From Candidatus Poribacteria bacterium (lineage in GTDB: Bacteria; Poribacteria; WGA-4E; WGA-3G): DNA of 64,000 nucleotides. The DNA lies in NCBI GenBank assembly GCA_022825825.1, contig JAJDWA010000029.1, positions 62,001 through 126,000 of the forward strand. Reading direction: 5' to 3'. Both the position numbers and the translations under genes were made by a program. The first letter of the stretch is position 1. Each line of letters opens with the position of its first letter. The notes below the pieces were generated by a model, which worked only from the letters and a program-made list of their open reading frames with translations, had not been told where the DNA came from and ran no database searches. Below are positions 51,745-62,838 of the stretch, piece by piece.

Positions 51745-54700
51745 CTATTCTGAATCTTGGAAGATAGGGGAAAGGTAGGTGGGATCAGTAGCGTTGCGGA
51801 ATAAGATGTGCCATTTTTCTGCAAATGTATCTTTATCCATACCTTCTCTCTTGCTAAGAACAGTAAAGTCGGTTTTTGAGATAATAAAAGAATCCATTTG
51901 CACGCGTTTGTTACGAAAATCATCACTGTTTTTTGAAATGTCTTGTACTAATTTGAAAAGAGTAACTTTTTCATTTTGTTGATTAATAGCATCGTGGATC
52001 ATACCGTGAGGTTCAATAAAGACAATGCGTTGTTTTGATCCCTTTAGTATCCATAGGATAAAGTCCGGATAGATGCCTATGTTTTCGTAGAAACCGACTC
52101 CTTTACCTCGACTCTGGTTTCGTAATAGAAATATCTCATTTGTTTTAGGAATAGCCGTATTTGCTCTGTTTAGATACTGTCGCAGATCCGATACGAAATC
52201 TTGTTCGCTTTCTTCCAAAGCAGGTGGTTTCGCTTCTAAACTAGGATTTACTTCGCCCTTGAGCATGACGATCAATGGTTGATAAAGATGCCTCTCAATG
52301 TATGCTTCGGGTAGTTCCGTTCTTGGCGATCTGTATACAAATTCACCATCATTTATCATCTGCTCTATTTTTCTTTTCAGTCCACGCAGATTTTCAATTA
52401 ACTCATGTTTTTCCTTACTAACACGGATTTCCCAATCTTCAAAGTTGGATTCCATTTTATTTATATCTTCCAATTCCATATACTGTGTGGTTATCCTCTG
52501 CTGAATTAGTCGGTAGAATTTGGCAATGTATTTACGCAGAATTTGGAGAACAAGTTCCTCAAAACGTTTCAGGTCTTCTTTAGATTGCGGCACATATTCA
52601 GCGTCAGTCATTACGTACAGTTTGTATCTTTTCTCGTTTGGACTGACAATTCTTCTGAGCGTTTCAATATCAAAAATGAGGTTGTGGAATTGTTTTTCCT
52701 GTTTATACTGAAGTAGTTGGAGTCTTATCCATTCCCAATTGACCATATTTAAACTTGTATCGGGAATTTCAGCATCTTGTATCGCAGCGAGCGCTTGTTC
52801 TCTCTGAATGTTATCTTCCGAACTACTTTGTATGATTTCAACACTTTGGGTGTTGTGGGTAACGACTATATTTTTATTTATTTCCAGGGGAACACATTTC
52901 CCTTTAGCAACATCATCAAATAGAGGTGCCTTGGGACAAAGCAACCCTTTTTGCCGATACTCAGTGTTGATGATGATGGGTAATTCCAATTGAACTTTTT
53001 CTTCAAATTCTACACCTTCACGCAATAGGTAATCCCTAAATTGTGCCATGAAGTTAGCACGGACTGCAAAGATGTTAAGTGTTTCTAAAAGCGGTAGATT
53101 AGGCGGGTGTTCACCATCGACAGCACTGCTACGTTTGAGACACATATCCTTACCACGTAAGCGGACCCCACGACCAAACAACTGAATAATCTGAGAACCT
53201 TCCTGTCTGCCGATGTTGAGCAGTCCCATGGCAGTGACTCGCCAACTGTCCCATCCTTCAATAAACTTTTTTGCACCGATGAGGATATTGATTGAACTTT
53301 CGGGTTTGTTGATGTCGTTAAAGAGGCTTTCTGTTAGCACATCTTCAGAATCTAAGATAATATCTGCATCGTCCTTTTGGACGAGTTTTTTGAAAGCCGA
53401 TGTGTCTCCGATGTAAATAAGTCCAAAGTATTGGTTACCACTGGTGATTTTCAATGCGATTTCACCGGGTGAGTTTCGGACATCACAAAGATGTAACGCA
53501 CCGCCTGAATCGGTATGAAAGACTTCTTGGAGGATACTGGTGTATATTTTCTCGGGCATCTCGTCGGCTTCTCTGAGATAATCCAGTCGGTTCGAAAAAA
53601 CATCATTGCCGTAGTCATCGGATAAGCCCGATTTGCCTTTTAGAATATCTTCTATGCCTTGAGTTGCCCAACCTTCTTCGTTTCTCAGAAAACGGTGCAG
53701 AAAACGGATAACGTTAAGAACATCAGAACGCGATTGTTTTTTTTCAGTATAGACTGCGTTAACCTTACTACCAACAAATGCCCATAATGGTGAGTCTAAG
53801 CCATAGTTGCTCACAGCTTCTCGGTTTTCCTTGAAATATCTGCGTTGTTCGTAGAAACTAAGTAGATTGCCTAATAGCAGTTTTTCAGTTTGCGTGTCGT
53901 CATCATACCTGATGTTTAAGATGCGGAAGTTTTTCCCATATCCATCTCCATAGAAATATCGGTAGGAATAATCAAATGCAATCGATTTTCCGTATTCATC
54001 AATAAGGTCGGCGTTTTTAGCGGCGGTGAGTGCTTGCCCGAATGTTGCGCTATATTCAAATGTAAAACCTGTTTCGGCAAGTATCTCTCGGATTTTTCGC
54101 CAAACTTCGCCGCCGCTGCCTTTGTGTCCTTCGTCAACAAGGATCAGGTTGTTCCCTTCAAATGCCTCAACTGGGACACTTTCACCCTCACCTGTCTTTT
54201 CTTCTACTAACTTTGTGATCTCAATGACCTGCATTGCGTTGTGTGAACGAGCGTTTTGATTGCCTTCAACGTTGAAACGTTCGCATCGGATATCAGAATT
54301 TGCGAGTTCACGCCTGTGTTGTTCGCTTAAGCCCTCATTTGGTGTGATGAGAACGACATGATCCAATTCCTCTTTACAGTAGTGCCTATACTGGTGATAG
54401 TTGATGTGCATGATAAGGGTTTTGCCTGCACCAGTTGCCATCCACATAGCGATTTTTTCAAGATCGGCATCTTCAAAGTCAACATCCCTGGGATCTGCAG
54501 GGGCTTTTGCATCGTTACGTTTTTGGACAAAATCATTAAGTTGACGCATCAGCTCGCCACTTTTATTGAATTTCCAGTCCAAGAATATTTCGGTATAAAG
54601 CAGTGACAAGTATTGAAAATAACGGAGAATAATCGGCTGTGTGCGTTTGTTATTTATAGCGGACAGATGCTGTTTGATGTTGGCATCATAGATCGGGAGT

Positions 54701-54903
54701 TCAGCTTCTATCTCAGGTTTCAGATTTGGACGGGACATCAGGAATTTGCAAACTTCGGTGTGTCCATCTGGGGTGAATCCCTCCTCTATGTTTTTAACGT
54801 CGTTGAGGAGATCTTGCGTGGTTTTATAACCGAAGTGACTATTGAGCCATGCATGGAGGGTAAGATGATTTTCAAGTTTGCGTTGCGAATTGTTTCTCGG
54901 CAT
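51745..54903 (-). CDS. Type III-like restriction enzyme, helicase/endonuclease subunit (Res)
   Basis: 1052 residues, ATG 54903, 7 nt after the stop of the methyltransferase gene. Superfamily 2 helicase motifs: Walker A ATGAGKT at 156-162, motif II DEGH at 257-260, motif III-like FEYSATF and motif VI-like IIQLFGRGVRLRGK. The C-terminal nuclease region reads IGIYPDFILWILKGSKQRIVFIEPHG, which has the P-D...E-x-K spacing of Res nucleases but His in place of the final Lys. It should translocate on DNA and cut when the target is unmethylated, together with Mod. The frame is intact although mod is shifted. Confidence 0.9.
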   Translation of the reverse strand: MPRNNSQRKLENHLTLHAWLNSHFGYKTTQDLLNDVKNIEEGFTPDGHTEVCKFLMSRPNLKPEIEAELPIYDANIKQHLSAINNKRTQPIILRYFQYLSLLYTEIFLDWKFNKSGELMRQLNDFVQKRNDAKAPADPRDVDFEDADLEKIAMWMATGAGKTLIMHINYHQYRHYCKEELDHVVLITPNEGLSEQHRRELANSDIRCERFNVEGNQNARSHNAMQVIEITKLVEEKTGEGESVPVEAFEGNNLILVDEGHKGSGGEVWRKIREILAETGFTFEYSATFGQALTAAKNADLIDEYGKSIAFDYSYRYFYGDGYGKNFRILNIRYDDDTQTEKLLLGNLLSFYEQRRYFKENREAVSNYGLDSPLWAFVGSKVNAVYTEKKQSRSDVLNVIRFLHRFLRNEEGWATQGIEDILKGKSGLSDDYGNDVFSNRLDYLREADEMPEKIYTSILQEVFHTDSGGALHLCDVRNSPGEIALKITSGNQYFGLIYIGDTSAFKKLVQKDDADIILDSEDVLTESLFNDINKPESSINILIGAKKFIEGWDSWRVTAMGLLNIGRQEGSQIIQLFGRGVRLRGKDMCLKRSSAVDGEHPPNLPLLETLNIFAVRANFMAQFRDYLLREGVEFEEKVQLELPIIINTEYRQKGLLCPKAPLFDDVAKGKCVPLEINKNIVVTHNTQSVEIIQSSSEDNIQREQALAAIQDAEIPDTSLNMVNWEWIRLQLLQYKQEKQFHNLIFDIETLRRIVSPNEKRYKLYVMTDAEYVPQSKEDLKRFEELVLQILRKYIAKFYRLIQQRITTQYMELEDINKMESNFEDWEIRVSKEKHELIENLRGLKRKIEQMINDGEFVYRSPRTELPEAYIERHLYQPLIVMLKGEVNPSLEAKPPALEESEQDFVSDLRQYLNRANTAIPKTNEIFLLRNQSRGKGVGFYENIGIYPDFILWILKGSKQRIVFIEPHGMIHDAINQQNEKVTLFKLVQDISKNSDDFRNKRVQMDSFIISKTDFTVLSKREGMDKDTFAEKWHILFRNATDPTYLSPIFQDSE

Positions 54904-54910
54904 AACAGTT

Positions 54911-56890
54911 TTATTGTGAAAACATAAGTCGCTTAAAAAGCGGATCTAACGATTTTGCACCTGGAACGATGCTATTTGTATTAACATACACTTCTGCCGC
55001 ACTTTTTGTGAGTTCGTTTTCCTCAATGAATTTGCAATCACGTTCGTAGTCTTCATTTTCCCATCCTTTGGTTTCACGCCAGATAATGACAACAGTTTTT
55101 TGATCGACTGTACCTCTATAGACGAGATAACGTCTTTCACCATCGTGCAGACACTTACGTTTTTGGACTGATAAACCGAGCAGGTAGTTAAAGGTTTCGG
55201 GTAGGTCTATGGTTTCTGTTTGTGTCTGCATATTTTTGACGATCTTAAGTTGATAACTGAACGGGTTTTGAAGGTCGGAAATGTTTAAGAAAGTTGGACT
55301 TTCCTTTGTGTCACTTTCCAACATATAACGTAATCGGTGTTCGTCAAGTAAAAGATTTTGATGTTCGGTTTCGTTGAATTCTATGTTGTTGAGGGCATCT
55401 TCATAAGACTCAATCCGTTGGTATTTGATGATATGTGGGAGGTGGCTCTCACGGGATTCGGGTTTTGCATTCTTCCACTTTTCGGCATAAACGGCTTTTT
55501 TGATACGCGGCATCAAGGCAGTGTCAAAATGGTGTCCCATTTCAATGAGGATATATTTACGGTTTCCATTGTCTTTGCGATTGAGATTGATGGTGGCGTG
55601 GGCGGTGGTACCAGAGCCTGCAAAAAAGTCAAGGATTATGTCATCGCCACTTCTTTCCGTCAATATTTCAATAACATCTTTGACAGCATGTATTGATTTT
55701 GGATAACTAAAAACGTTCTGTTCTTCAAATAGGTTGCTTAGCAACTTAGTCCCATGTGAAGATGCATCATATTTACTGTCAGTCCAGACACTTTTTGGGC
55801 GTGTTCCTTCTTTTATTTTGTCAATAATCTTAACTTTCCATTGACCTGATTTATTCTGCTCTATTTTTATTTCATTATCATTGACATGTTTTGCGAAGGA
55901 TGGGCGTGTTTTTCTCCAAACTCTTTTGTTACCGTTACTATCCAATGGTAAAATTTCAATTTGTTCATCTGAAATCCTTTCTAAAGAAATTTGTTCTCCC
56001 TGTAGCAAAAAGTAAATTGGGTAATATGAGTTAGGAGCTTCTACAGGAGTTGAAAGTCCACCTGTTCTCAAAAAATCGCGCCATCTGAATAGGTCTTTCC
56101 CCGTTCCCTCAGTATATAGTTTCTTTTGTTCATCAGTTAGTTCAAGAAAATTAATTGATGGCAAACCTGCTTGTTTAGAATAAACGTATAAGTACTCATG
56201 ACATGTAGCAAAATACGAATCATTAGTACGTCCTCCTGGTTTACTCTGAACAATGACTGTGCCTATGTGGTTTTTTTTCCCAAAAACGCTATCACATAAG
56301 ACAGCTAAATAAGCTTGCTCTTCATCATCTATTGCTGTTGCAATCAAACCGACATCTCGTAATAAATCTTTAGCTATATCAAGTCTCTTTCCAATAAAAG
56401 TCAGCCAGCTTGAATGTTGGTATGAGTTTTTATAGAGAAACCCACTTGATTGAGTATTATATGGGGGATCAATATAGATTGTTTTCACAGATTCACGATA
56501 TTTCTCTGTCAACAGATTCAACCCTTGATAGTTCTCACCGTGAATTAACAAACCGTCTGTCTCGTTATCCAGATCGTCAAAATGTGCCAAGAGGCGGTCT
56601 TTGAAGTCAGAGTCAAAGTGGCAAGTATCCAAAACGAGGTTCGGGTTTTCTTTGAGAAAGTCAACGGAAAAAACAACCTCCCTGCCCTCCTTATCAGGAG
56701 GGTTGAAAAGGTTAGAGGCTATCTCGTGGATAGCAAACAGGTCTTTCCATTCGTCAAGTTGTGCGGTGTTTTCTGCGATTTCAGGATAGAATTCTTCTGG
56801 GATGCGATCAAGCGTAAAGCAGTAATCAGTAGAGAGAACAAACTTCTTTTTGAGCCAGAGACGTTTTTGGAATTCTTCAATGTGTGCCAA
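54911..56890 (-). CDS. Type III-like DNA methyltransferase (Mod), C-terminal part after frameshift
   Basis: Catalytic part of the methyltransferase, 659 residues if read from a TTG at 56890, but that has no ribosome site and the true reading frame is open back to the (AG)10 tract at 56979. Residues just upstream of the TTG (WLETAQLVHQIASQIIDFLAHIEEFQKRLWLKKKFV) match the usual linker of full-length Mod proteins. Motif IV DPPYNT precedes motif I DFFAGSGTTAHA, the beta-class order typical of type III Mod N6-adenine methyltransferases. Removing one AG unit joins it to the N-terminal part to give about 1038 residues. Confidence 0.88.
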   Translation of the reverse strand: MAHIEEFQKRLWLKKKFVLSTDYCFTLDRIPEEFYPEIAENTAQLDEWKDLFAIHEIASNLFNPPDKEGREVVFSVDFLKENPNLVLDTCHFDSDFKDRLLAHFDDLDNETDGLLIHGENYQGLNLLTEKYRESVKTIYIDPPYNTQSSGFLYKNSYQHSSWLTFIGKRLDIAKDLLRDVGLIATAIDDEEQAYLAVLCDSVFGKKNHIGTVIVQSKPGGRTNDSYFATCHEYLYVYSKQAGLPSINFLELTDEQKKLYTEGTGKDLFRWRDFLRTGGLSTPVEAPNSYYPIYFLLQGEQISLERISDEQIEILPLDSNGNKRVWRKTRPSFAKHVNDNEIKIEQNKSGQWKVKIIDKIKEGTRPKSVWTDSKYDASSHGTKLLSNLFEEQNVFSYPKSIHAVKDVIEILTERSGDDIILDFFAGSGTTAHATINLNRKDNGNRKYILIEMGHHFDTALMPRIKKAVYAEKWKNAKPESRESHLPHIIKYQRIESYEDALNNIEFNETEHQNLLLDEHRLRYMLESDTKESPTFLNISDLQNPFSYQLKIVKNMQTQTETIDLPETFNYLLGLSVQKRKCLHDGERRYLVYRGTVDQKTVVIIWRETKGWENEDYERDCKFIEENELTKSAAEVYVNTNSIVPGAKSLDPLFKRLMFSQ

Positions 56891-58029
56891 AAAGTCAATG
56901 ATTTGGGAGGCAATTTGGTGAACGAGTTGCGCTGTTTCAAGCCAACTATTACTGGATAGTCCAATTGAATTTTGAGTACTCTCTCTCTCTCTCTCTCTTT
57001 GTTAAAAAATGTTTTGTTAAGAATTAAATTAGTTAATGGTATAACTTCGTTTTTAATGTAAATATCAAGTTCACGATCAAGAAACTTTTTCAGATCTTTA
57101 TGTATAAAAAAGTCTGCGGTGTTGCGGCGTGTGTAGGTTCGGAGGTGTTTTTTGAGAAGAGTTACACCTTCTATTTCGTGTCCAAGTTCACTTTGGATAT
57201 TGTAATTGTCTATGTGAGTTAAAATTTCTTCTTCAGCAGCATCAATTATTTTGTCCTGTTGTTTTTGTCCGCTATAAAGTTTCTTCTCTTCATCGGTAAG
57301 AGGACGGTATTCAAACGGGATGCGAACTTCATCGGTTTCTGAATTATATTTAGTATTTGCTGCTATAGGAATAAAGAAACGTTTATCGCCCTTAACGTTG
57401 TCTTTTTCAATGTCTACATCTTGAAGGTCAAAGATGGTGGTAGTCCCTTGAGATTTAAAACGGTAATCGGAGAAGTGTTCACCGCTTTTGACATAATATT
57501 GGTCTCGGTTTGCCCAATGGAGATACACCTCTTCACCGTTATATGGGACAGCATAACGTTCGGTTTGTGAATAGCGTCTGCGTGGTATAAAGTCTCCGTT
57601 ATCATAGTAACGTGAGAAAAAGGTGTAGAGGTGGTTATAAACGACATCTTCACGTTGGTTACGGGTTTGTGGAGAACCAAGTTGCTCTCTTGCTTGAAGG
57701 TATTCTCGAACTGTCTTAGACTTCTTAAGACTTTCGTCAAGGAGGTTACCATCTCCATCTAACACATCACCGTCAAATTCGTCTCTAACTTGCTTTTCTA
57801 ATCTCTTAAGTTCTTCGTGGGCAGATTCTGCTTCGGAATTTGCATCAAGTGTATCGTTAACGATGGACGGAAGTTCCTCGTCAATAAAAGTTTGGAGTTG
57901 TTCGCGCCGATAGTTAATAATACGGTAGATGCCAAAGTCAAGGTCGGCGGCATCTGCGCGGAAGAGTTTTTGTAGGAGGTCTTGTAGTTTTTGTAGGGAT
58001 TCTAACATGTTCTTCTGTTCTTCTTGCAT
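56719..58029 (-). CDS. Mod N-terminal part, reading frame broken at the (AG)10 tract
   Basis: 436 residues from ATG 58029. Residues 1-345 are typical of the N-terminal half of large Mod-like methyltransferases (LFRADAADLDFGIYRIINYR, QREDVVYNHLYTFFSRYYDNGDFIPRRRYSQ, YTRRNTADFFIHKDLKKFLDREL). After FFNKERERERER the frame is shifted and the last 85 or so residues are out-of-frame sequence ending at 56719. The conserved linker and catalytic domains continue in another frame. As sequenced, the product would lack methyltransferase motifs and be inactive. Res downstream remains intact. Confidence 0.85.
   Translation of the reverse strand: MQEEQKNMLESLQKLQDLLQKLFRADAADLDFGIYRIINYRREQLQTFIDEELPSIVNDTLDANSEAESAHEELKRLEKQVRDEFDGDVLDGDGNLLDESLKKSKTVREYLQAREQLGSPQTRNQREDVVYNHLYTFFSRYYDNGDFIPRRRYSQTERYAVPYNGEEVYLHWANRDQYYVKSGEHFSDYRFKSQGTTTIFDLQDVDIEKDNVKGDKRFFIPIAANTKYNSETDEVRIPFEYRPLTDEEKKLYSGQKQQDKIIDAAEEEILTHIDNYNIQSELGHEIEGVTLLKKHLRTYTRRNTADFFIHKDLKKFLDRELDIYIKNEVIPLTNLILNKTFFNKERERERVLKIQLDYPVIVGLKQRNSFTKLPPKSLTFWHTLKNSKNVSGSKRSLFSLLITALRLIASQKNSILKSQKTPHNLTNGKTCLLSTR
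56979..56998 (-). repeat. (AG)10 dinucleotide microsatellite inside mod
   Basis: Ten CT units on the plus strand, AG on the coding strand, at the exact point where the mod frame changes. Nine units would restore one continuous frame reading ...RERESTQNSIGLSS.... Adjacent codons encode a Glu-Arg run, so the repeat is inside the protein linker. Confidence 0.9.
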
Positions 58030-61536: not shown

Positions 61537-62838
61537 ATGAGTTTAATTGAAGGGCTATCCATTGGGATTGCCGCGATACGCGCCAACAAAATGCGATCTT
61601 TGTTAACAATGCTTGGCATAATAATCGGCATTGCGGCAGTGCTTGCAATGATAGCTATTGGCGATGGCGCTAAAGAGATTGTGCTGCAAGATGCACAGAA
61701 ACTCGGTGGCGCGAACCAATTTACTTTATACCGCAGGGCTAAGAAAAAATTGGGAAAACACAACATTCCAATCCGTACGAAGGAATATCTTAACTATGAT
61801 GATGTGCTTGCGATAGAATCAGAATGTCCCGCGGTGAGTGATGTCGCCCCAAGGATACGAGATTGGAAAGGCCTGTTGATCCAAGCGCCAGGTGGTGCTG
61901 AAACACGTGCAGGGTATAACGGTGTAGATACATCCTTTAAAACTGCAATGGATTGGAAAGTCCGAGAGGGTAGATTTATTACAGATGAAGACGTTAAAAA
62001 AGCAACTACAATTTGTGTGCTTGGCGATGAAGTTGCAACTGATCTATTCGGTAGCGGGTCTCCTCTTGGGCAAGAGATAAAAATGGCTCGGCGTGTAAGA
62101 TATTATGACCATCGTGGAAAGAGACGTAGTAGACGTATAACCGAAAGGTTCACGGTTGTAGGTACAATGATGCCAAGGGGGAGAAGCCTACGTTTCGGTT
62201 GGAGTTTTGATAGCATGGTCTTTTTTCCTATATCAACCACTCAAGAACGTTTCACTGGCGATGATCATATCCAGGAAATCGTAGTCTATGCCAATTCCGT
62301 TGAAGATGTTCCTAATGCTGTACGCGAGGTGAAAGAGGTAATCCGTAAACGTCACAAGGGCGAAGATAATTTTGTCAAAATCTATCAGATGCGGAAAGGT
62401 ATTCGGCAGTTAGAAAAAATAAGTAAGATGATAAAAATTGCGCTTGGCAGCATCGCAGGCTTTTCGCTTCTCGTGGGTGGTATCGGCATAATGAATATGA
62501 TGTTAGTTGCTGTCGTTGAACGTACTCGCGAGATCGGTTTGCGGAAAGCACTCGGTGCAAAACCACTTGATATAATGTTTCAATTCCTCATTGAGTCAAT
62601 TACAATGTGTGCAGTAGGTGGAATTATAGGTATTGGCTTAGGTATCTTGGTAGGGGAAGGCATGTCGGTCCTTGCTGTTAAGGTCGTTAAAATAGTGCCC
62701 GAATGGCCCGCAGTTGTTTCTGCCCAGTGGATTTTGATTTCAGTCCTATTTTCTGCTGCAATCGGCATATCTTTTGGGTTGTATCCTGCAATAAAAGCCT
62801 CTATGCTATCCCCTATTGAGGCACTGCGAAAAGATTAA
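61537..62838 (+). CDS. MacB-type ABC transporter permease, first of a tandem pair
   Basis: 433 residues. TM1 MRSLLTMLGIIIGIAAVLAMIAIGDGAKE, then a MacB periplasmic core domain (GVDTSFKTAMDWKVREGRFITDEDV, VCVLGDEVATDLFG, PLGQEIKM), TMs 2-4 with GGIGIMNMMLVAVVERTREIGLRKALGA, and the ending LYPAIKASMLSPIEALRKD. It carries a basic insertion in the periplasmic domain (RRVRYYDHRGKRRSRR). The cognate ATPase is not in this part of the window. GAGAAG precedes the ATG. It is followed after 177 nt by a close paralogue. Confidence 0.92.
   Translation: MSLIEGLSIGIAAIRANKMRSLLTMLGIIIGIAAVLAMIAIGDGAKEIVLQDAQKLGGANQFTLYRRAKKKLGKHNIPIRTKEYLNYDDVLAIESECPAVSDVAPRIRDWKGLLIQAPGGAETRAGYNGVDTSFKTAMDWKVREGRFITDEDVKKATTICVLGDEVATDLFGSGSPLGQEIKMARRVRYYDHRGKRRSRRITERFTVVGTMMPRGRSLRFGWSFDSMVFFPISTTQERFTGDDHIQEIVVYANSVEDVPNAVREVKEVIRKRHKGEDNFVKIYQMRKGIRQLEKISKMIKIALGSIAGFSLLVGGIGIMNMMLVAVVERTREIGLRKALGAKPLDIMFQFLIESITMCAVGGIIGIGLGILVGEGMSVLAVKVVKIVPEWPAVVSAQWILISVLFSAAIGISFGLYPAIKASMLSPIEALRKD

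Follow-up and report, generated by a model that had tools for sequence, protein, structure and literature searches.

We asked whether the frameshift that splits a methyltransferase gene of a Candidatus Poribacteria bacterium is a lesion or a switch. The gene, mod, lies in a stretch of 64,000 nucleotides (hereafter the window; positions 62,001 to 126,000 of the forward strand of contig JAJDWA010000029.1, assembly GCA_022825825.1), followed by a res gene, and it is broken at a run of ten AG dinucleotides. On sequence evidence we conclude, with a probability of about 0.88, that mod and res form a type III restriction-modification operon whose mod gene is phase-variable by slippage of this tract. 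The initial annotation had proposed phase variation of this kind, and the tracts and reading frames of relatives lend it strong support.

The mod gene is encoded on the minus strand of the window. From an ATG at 58029 it reads open into (AG)10 at 56979-56998; the upstream open frame (58032-56719) continues for about 90 codons past the tract before a stop, and the downstream mod frame, which carries the motifs DPPY and FAGSG, is open to 54911. The two frames are offset by 2 at the tract; both halves are otherwise open, with no lesion found in mod besides the tract frameshift. Tandem Repeats Finder (TRF) reports ten CT units at 100% match, which is (AG)10 on the coding strand, and both halves match one PADLOC profile, PDLC03646 MTase_III (1057 positions), at positions 7-224 for the 5′ half and 372-1025 for the 3′ half. 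Both the split at ten AG units and the resumption of the catalytic motifs in the other frame, as first annotated, were thus borne out. Like the tracts of mods that vary by simple sequence repeats (SSRs), (AG)10 is a tandem repeat that lies within the reading frame and has a unit length not divisible by three. In 100 shuffles that preserved its dinucleotides the window never produced (AG)8, and the assembly to which the window belongs (G000; 75 contigs, 5.14 Mb) contains just two CT/AG runs of at least 8 units, (AG)10 included. The other is a (CT)8 on contig 3 (L001:1501-1516), within an open frame of 821 codons.

The 5′ part of mod (56999-58029) encodes an N-terminal domain of about 343 residues, which matches PDLC03646; it is 63-74% identical in nine relatives and hits no Pfam family at E 0.001. 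The 3′ part (54911-56978) encodes, in the other frame, an N6 methyltransferase domain and a C-terminal region (PF01555, E 5.6e-34; PDLC03646, E 9.9e-116). Translation and alignment place the catalytic motif DPPY (motif IV) at 56459-56470 and FAGSG, the S-adenosylmethionine-binding motif I, at 55610-55624; a segment of 170 residues that varies among relatives and holds the presumed target recognition domain occupies 55703-56212 (all three coordinates by residue count). The first ATG of the 3′ part lies 450 residues in, beyond the catalytic motifs, and no start with a Shine-Dalgarno (SD)-like site was found in it before DPPY. The res gene (51745-54903), on the same minus strand, begins with an ATG 7 nucleotides after the mod stop, matches the REase_III profile PDLC03654 and is one open frame of 1052 amino acids, intact as the initial annotation had it; res adjoins mod in ten relatives. 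DPPY thus precedes the recognition region, FxGxG follows it and the adjacent res bears a helicase domain, which is the arrangement of a type III restriction-modification system.

We compared the tract in related genomes, a check that had been suggested for this locus. Relatives were obtained from whole-genome searches and one scan of named genomes, and were filtered by script for an N-part match reaching at least residue 318 and a C-part match within 400 nucleotides on the same strand; a tract was defined as a G or C run of at least 7, or at least 4 AG units, in the linker. This left 21 distinct loci of a Poribacterial Mod subfamily, counting that of the window, and 45 homologues from named genomes that fall outside it (from L074-L134; L094 and L096 are duplicates around the linker, and L090 lies outside the subfamily despite its title, Candidatus Poribacteria). 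A slippage tract occupies the same interdomain linker in 14 of the 21 subfamily loci, compared with 0 of the 45 outsiders (Fisher p 1.5e-9), and in related genomes 10 additional loci, from subfamilies more remote, all lack a tract and are all in frame. The tracts differ in kind and length: AG10 (window), AG9 (L041), AG5 (L035), G7, G8, five G9, two G10, G11 and G13. They also differ in frame, with four loci in frame (L037, L041, L059, L066), six in the +1 frame (L035, L038, L057, L058, L063, L072) and four in the +2 frame (window, L039, L045, L159). Ten of the 14 tract-bearing loci are therefore out of frame, versus none of the seven tract-free ones (p 0.004), all of which are in frame at the linker. 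Among the outsiders several have A or T runs of 6-8 and one, L117, is out of frame, its frameshift probably lying at a run of A. Loci that failed the filter include L043, L064, L068, L073, L099, L150-L152, L155 and L156; the L064 contig (by its sequence also that of L150; G032 contig 12) ends within the poly-G of a window-type mod, and the catalytic half of that mod stands at the start of another G032 contig (L043, contig 130).

The tract turns over repeatedly at this one site. On a tree of 31 rows built from the mod N part and the beginning of the C half, with the linker left out, tract type changes at least 9 times and tract presence at least 7 times, and the three AG-tract genes are not sisters. 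Between the window and L041, which belongs to another species, mod identity is 59-89% in 100-nucleotide bins near the linker and rises to 99% over about 200 nucleotides around the tract (56860-57060, minus strand), with one mismatch in 56 nucleotides upstream plus 120 downstream. These near-identical linkers, in genes otherwise diverged, differ in length, as compared between species only: ten AG units in the window and nine in L041. The L041 frame is open over 1037 codons, so that the intact product of about 1038 residues first predicted for nine units has a natural counterpart. We read this as a tract-bearing piece that, judging by the identity pattern, recently recombined between species and then underwent slippage. 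The poly-G linkers share GTTAA-rich flanks; an origin in an intergenic poly-G repeat element is something we suspect and do not claim.

In the protein, the tract falls in a poorly predicted linker. The model of L069, which is the same gene as L041 and encodes a natural in-frame protein, has a mean predicted local distance difference test score (pLDDT) of 72.7 and a predicted TM-score (pTM) of 0.70. Residues 330-356 of the model score below 50 and separate the N-terminal part from the catalytic part, both of which are better predicted; by coordinate arithmetic the tract encodes approximately residues 341-347. Such a linker, if disordered, would tolerate whole-codon changes in length. Sequence profiles and Foldseek both liken the catalytic half to EcoP15I Mod (4zcf), Mbo45V Mod (7dsu) and the Mod of 6k0w (Foldseek E 4e-18 to 7e-11 against the first chains, with TM-scores of just 0.2-0.5). 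Those chains have 567-644 residues, compared with about 1038 in the window-type Mod, and their best stretches correspond to profile positions 468-829 of 1043, leaving the N-terminal domain unmatched. A search of Res against PDB sequences gave no match at E 0.01.

Alleles that are out of frame (OFF) and in frame (ON) were also compared by the ratio of nonsynonymous to synonymous differences (pN/pS), leaving out L159 and L044 and taking approximately the first 240 residues of the C half as the C part; synonymous sites are near saturation for most pairs. The median pN/pS was 0.256 in the N part and 0.376 in the C part for 36 OFF-OFF pairs, and 0.260 and 0.273, respectively, for 45 ON-ON pairs. 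The closest OFF pair, L058/L063, has dN/dS values of 0.18 and 0.20, and no internal stops were found in the mod parts compared. By these substitution ratios the out-of-frame mod alleles are under purifying selection.

We propose the following mechanism. Slipped-strand mispairing at replication would add or remove AG units in a flexible linker that sits between the N-terminal and the catalytic domain. In-frame counts, such as the nine of a relative, would give the full Mod of about 1038 residues, and with any other count translation would stop between a few and about 90 codons downstream of the tract; the ten-unit state of the assembly would be OFF, presumably with loss of activity. Type III enzymes generally need both subunits; their cleavage is ATP-dependent and requires two inverted sites. 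Res should be inactive without Mod, so methylation and restriction would both be off and the cell would suffer no self-damage; the type III enzyme MmyCI of Mycoplasma mycoides subsp. capri is described as needing both Mod and Res subunits (PMC3498834). The most likely outcome would be a population mixed for a defence barrier, and mixed for methylation as well if no other Mod covers the same site. Slippage within a population and inactivity of Mod in the OFF state are inferred, as would be any effect of the switch on other genes.

Tracts of this type extend to other methyltransferase genes in Poribacteria. The genome of the window has a second type III mod on contig 67 (L185, reverse strand 2551-2559), split by G9 near its 5′ end, and in that family G7-G12 stands near the 5′ end in 7 of 9 loci read (the contig-67 locus included), the other two being tract-free and open; a tenth locus, L203, contained no motif from which its frame could be read. 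Genome G019 contains 58 runs of at least 9 G. We read 57 of these, the 58th being the window-type mod L039, and excluded two in L302 (contig 4), a locus with C17 and C88 runs that is probably an assembly artefact. Of the remaining 55 tracts, 43 adjoin an open frame of at least 100 amino acids; 40 of these frames were run against Pfam and 21 proved to be DNA methyltransferases (17 N6_N4_Mtase, 4 Eco57I or N6_Mtase), often with the methyltransferase start readable upstream of the tract in another frame. With L039, at least 22 of the 58 poly-G tracts therefore adjoin methyltransferase genes. Other G019 tracts (L259, L281, L289, L294) adjoin a sulfatase, an NAD-dependent DNA ligase, cadherin/fn3 and leucine-rich-repeat proteins. 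G021, assembled separately and belonging to the same genus, has 31 tracts of 9-12 nucleotides, of which 30 were read; 23 adjoin an open frame of at least 100 amino acids, and 10 of the 18 frames tested against Pfam are methyltransferases, two of these tracts lying 33 nucleotides apart in one gene.

This pattern is not common to all the genomes examined, because in G009 (one contig) 0 of 7 poly-G tracts have long open frames on both sides, despite 46 PF01555 matches, and no poly-G tract of at least 9 was found in G023 or G081. In the genome of the window one of four G runs of at least 9 lies in a mod. For G079, 10 of 16 tracts were read and two were Pfam-tested, giving one window-type mod and one frame of no family. 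Across eight genomes, those with more PF01555 matches also tend to have more tracts (Spearman 0.89, p 0.003), but the species are related and many tracts lie away from methyltransferases. N6_N4_Mtase family matches number 48 in G000, 72 in G019 and 8 in G023. Tentatively, and at somewhat less than even odds, we suggest that some Poribacteria possess a large phase-variable methylome, in which the mod linker acts as an interspecies switch cassette holding AG or poly-G and about 9 (G021) or 22 (G019) methyltransferase genes, both genomes being of genus g3, have tracts in or beside them. If true, a population could hold very many combined states of defence and methylation.

Several results weigh against switching by slippage. 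Tract-length variation was assessed between species, each represented by a single genome, and assemblies may miscount a homopolymer by one. In the linker of L044, which we counted as tract-free, there are an interrupted run, GGGGGAGGGG (G5AG4), and a stop codon. All seven tract-bearing loci of the contig-67 mod family are out of frame, in two different frames. Frames differ across the methyltransferase tracts in 20 of 21 cases in G019 and 9 of 10 in G021, where chance predicts two thirds; tract length in G019 is 9 in 43 of 55, which is suspiciously uniform, so the frames of that genome are not to be trusted. The pN/pS of the C part is higher in OFF-OFF than in ON-ON pairs (0.376 vs 0.273), and this weaker constraint may reflect subgroup differences or time spent OFF. 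Lastly, in five OFF alleles (L035, L039, L045, L058, L063) the stretch from the tract to DPPY contains an ATG that lacks an SD-like site, and in L035 and L072 there is a TTG that has such a site; because of these starts a separate C-terminal product may be possible in such alleles.

Among the alternatives, the one that survives best goes beyond the switch itself: a true phasevarion, in which the state of Mod alters the expression of many genes through methylation. SSR-switched mods of pathogens are reported to control regulons (PMC11475388, PMC7394358), which gives the idea a precedent, but we regard it as doubtful here. Contig 66 of the same genome (L190:1794-3740, minus strand) encodes an intact, tract-free Mod of 648 amino acids whose recognition segment is identical to that of the window Mod at 152 of 170 residues (89%) and 436 of 510 nucleotides. 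This Mod might keep the sites of the window Mod methylated and may so mask a change of methylome, which speaks against a simple phasevarion. Were it expressed and specific for the same site, the switch would change restriction and not methylation, and the contig-66 Mod could even protect the chromosome when the switch of the window turns on. In the place of res, it is followed by a frame of 512 amino acids of no Pfam family. Moreover, switching of defence suffices as an explanation since res is intact. What the sequences support is thus the switching of a putative restriction-modification system, as distinct from a switched regulon.

Three further explanations dispense with a switch. The ten-unit count could be an assembly or sequencing error, with the true count in frame in all cells: a metagenome assembly can get repeats wrong, the G019 tracts are oddly uniform in length and the L064/L150 contig ends inside poly-G. 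We consider this improbable, because several separate assemblies show differing tract lengths and frames, a 20-nucleotide dinucleotide repeat is short for current reads, and the tract would be real and expected to be mutable even if its count were wrong. Still more improbable is a plain pseudogene, with fixed loss of mod in this strain and a coincidental AG tract. The assembled allele is out of frame and a few subfamily loci carry more lesions (the L044 linker stop, and further breaks in the C halves of L040 and L045), but the window mod has no second lesion, in-frame tract alleles exist, and tracts recur at the same site in the subfamily and in none of the other homologues; we reject this explanation on the pN/pS values of the OFF alleles and their freedom from internal stops. 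As remote is a programmed ribosomal frameshift or transcriptional slippage, through which the out-of-frame gene would still yield full Mod. In its favour, ribosomes and polymerases can slip on repetitive tracts, selection maintains the OFF alleles and OFF is over-represented in some gene families, but a programmed event would need a fixed direction and is rejected because frame relations are mixed (in-frame 4, +1 6, +2 4), over tracts that differ in chemistry, AG or G.

Slippage of the mod tract, which we favour, has clear precedents. According to PMC3498834, MmyCI was OFF in an (AG)12 clone and ON in an (AG)10 clone, M. hyopneumoniae is listed with several AG-bearing mods in a genome, and MmyCI and the other mycoplasma mods resemble the window in having the AG tract inside mod and res next to it. 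A mid-gene dinucleotide tract in a type III mod, which the initial annotation called unusual, is therefore not without parallel. The MmyCI repeats begin at mod nucleotide 320 (PMC3498834), whereas the tract of the window comes only after an N-terminal domain of some 343 of the roughly 1038 Mod residues, and its relatives use poly-G at the same site. The ModA, ModB, ModD, ModH, ModS and ModP phasevarions are alike in their SSR within the mod frame, their ON-OFF switching by frame and their variable recognition domain between conserved ends; as reviewed, they belong to host-adapted pathogens, typically with one phasevarion Mod per strain and two in A. pleuropneumoniae (PMC11475388, PMC7394358). 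In contrast, the present system is from Poribacteria, its genome has at least two tract-bearing mods and its regulon is only putative. SSRs occur in 17.4% of the type III mods in REBASE, commensal and environmental species included (PMC7394358). Given these REBASE mods and the Mycoplasma ON/OFF clones, the switching mechanism is already known and the system of the window joins it. What is new is the lineage, the replacement and exchange of AG and poly-G at one site, and the scale, as in G019.

The environmental setting assumed at first also has to be revised: Candidatus Poribacteria is named among sponge symbiont groups (PMC5649159), and the bacterium is for that reason probably host-associated rather than free-living. 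The nearest named records of the gene family are metagenome-assembled genomes of Candidatus Poribacteria, whose titles make no mention of sponges. In the sources cited, methylation switching by slippage is studied mostly in host-adapted pathogens (PMC11475388, PMC7394358), and in the open-access literature neither Poribacteria that vary by phase nor phasevarions in sponge symbionts were found beyond passing mentions. That tracts replace one another at one linker in Poribacteria, with genomes of about 5 Mb, suggests that bet-hedging of DNA defence may also benefit members of dense symbiont communities. Sponge metagenomes would then be predicted to contain mixed tract lengths and mixed methylation of Mod sites within one symbiont population.

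Poly-G is also found outside the mod genes. Eight poly-G loci searched against Rfam gave no match at the gathering threshold. At L165, L177, L169, L176, L182 and L170 (tract near 1501), G8-G11 lies in leader-like regions with GCCCGC...GCGGGC arms and without an Rfam match, and several of these regions are much alike.

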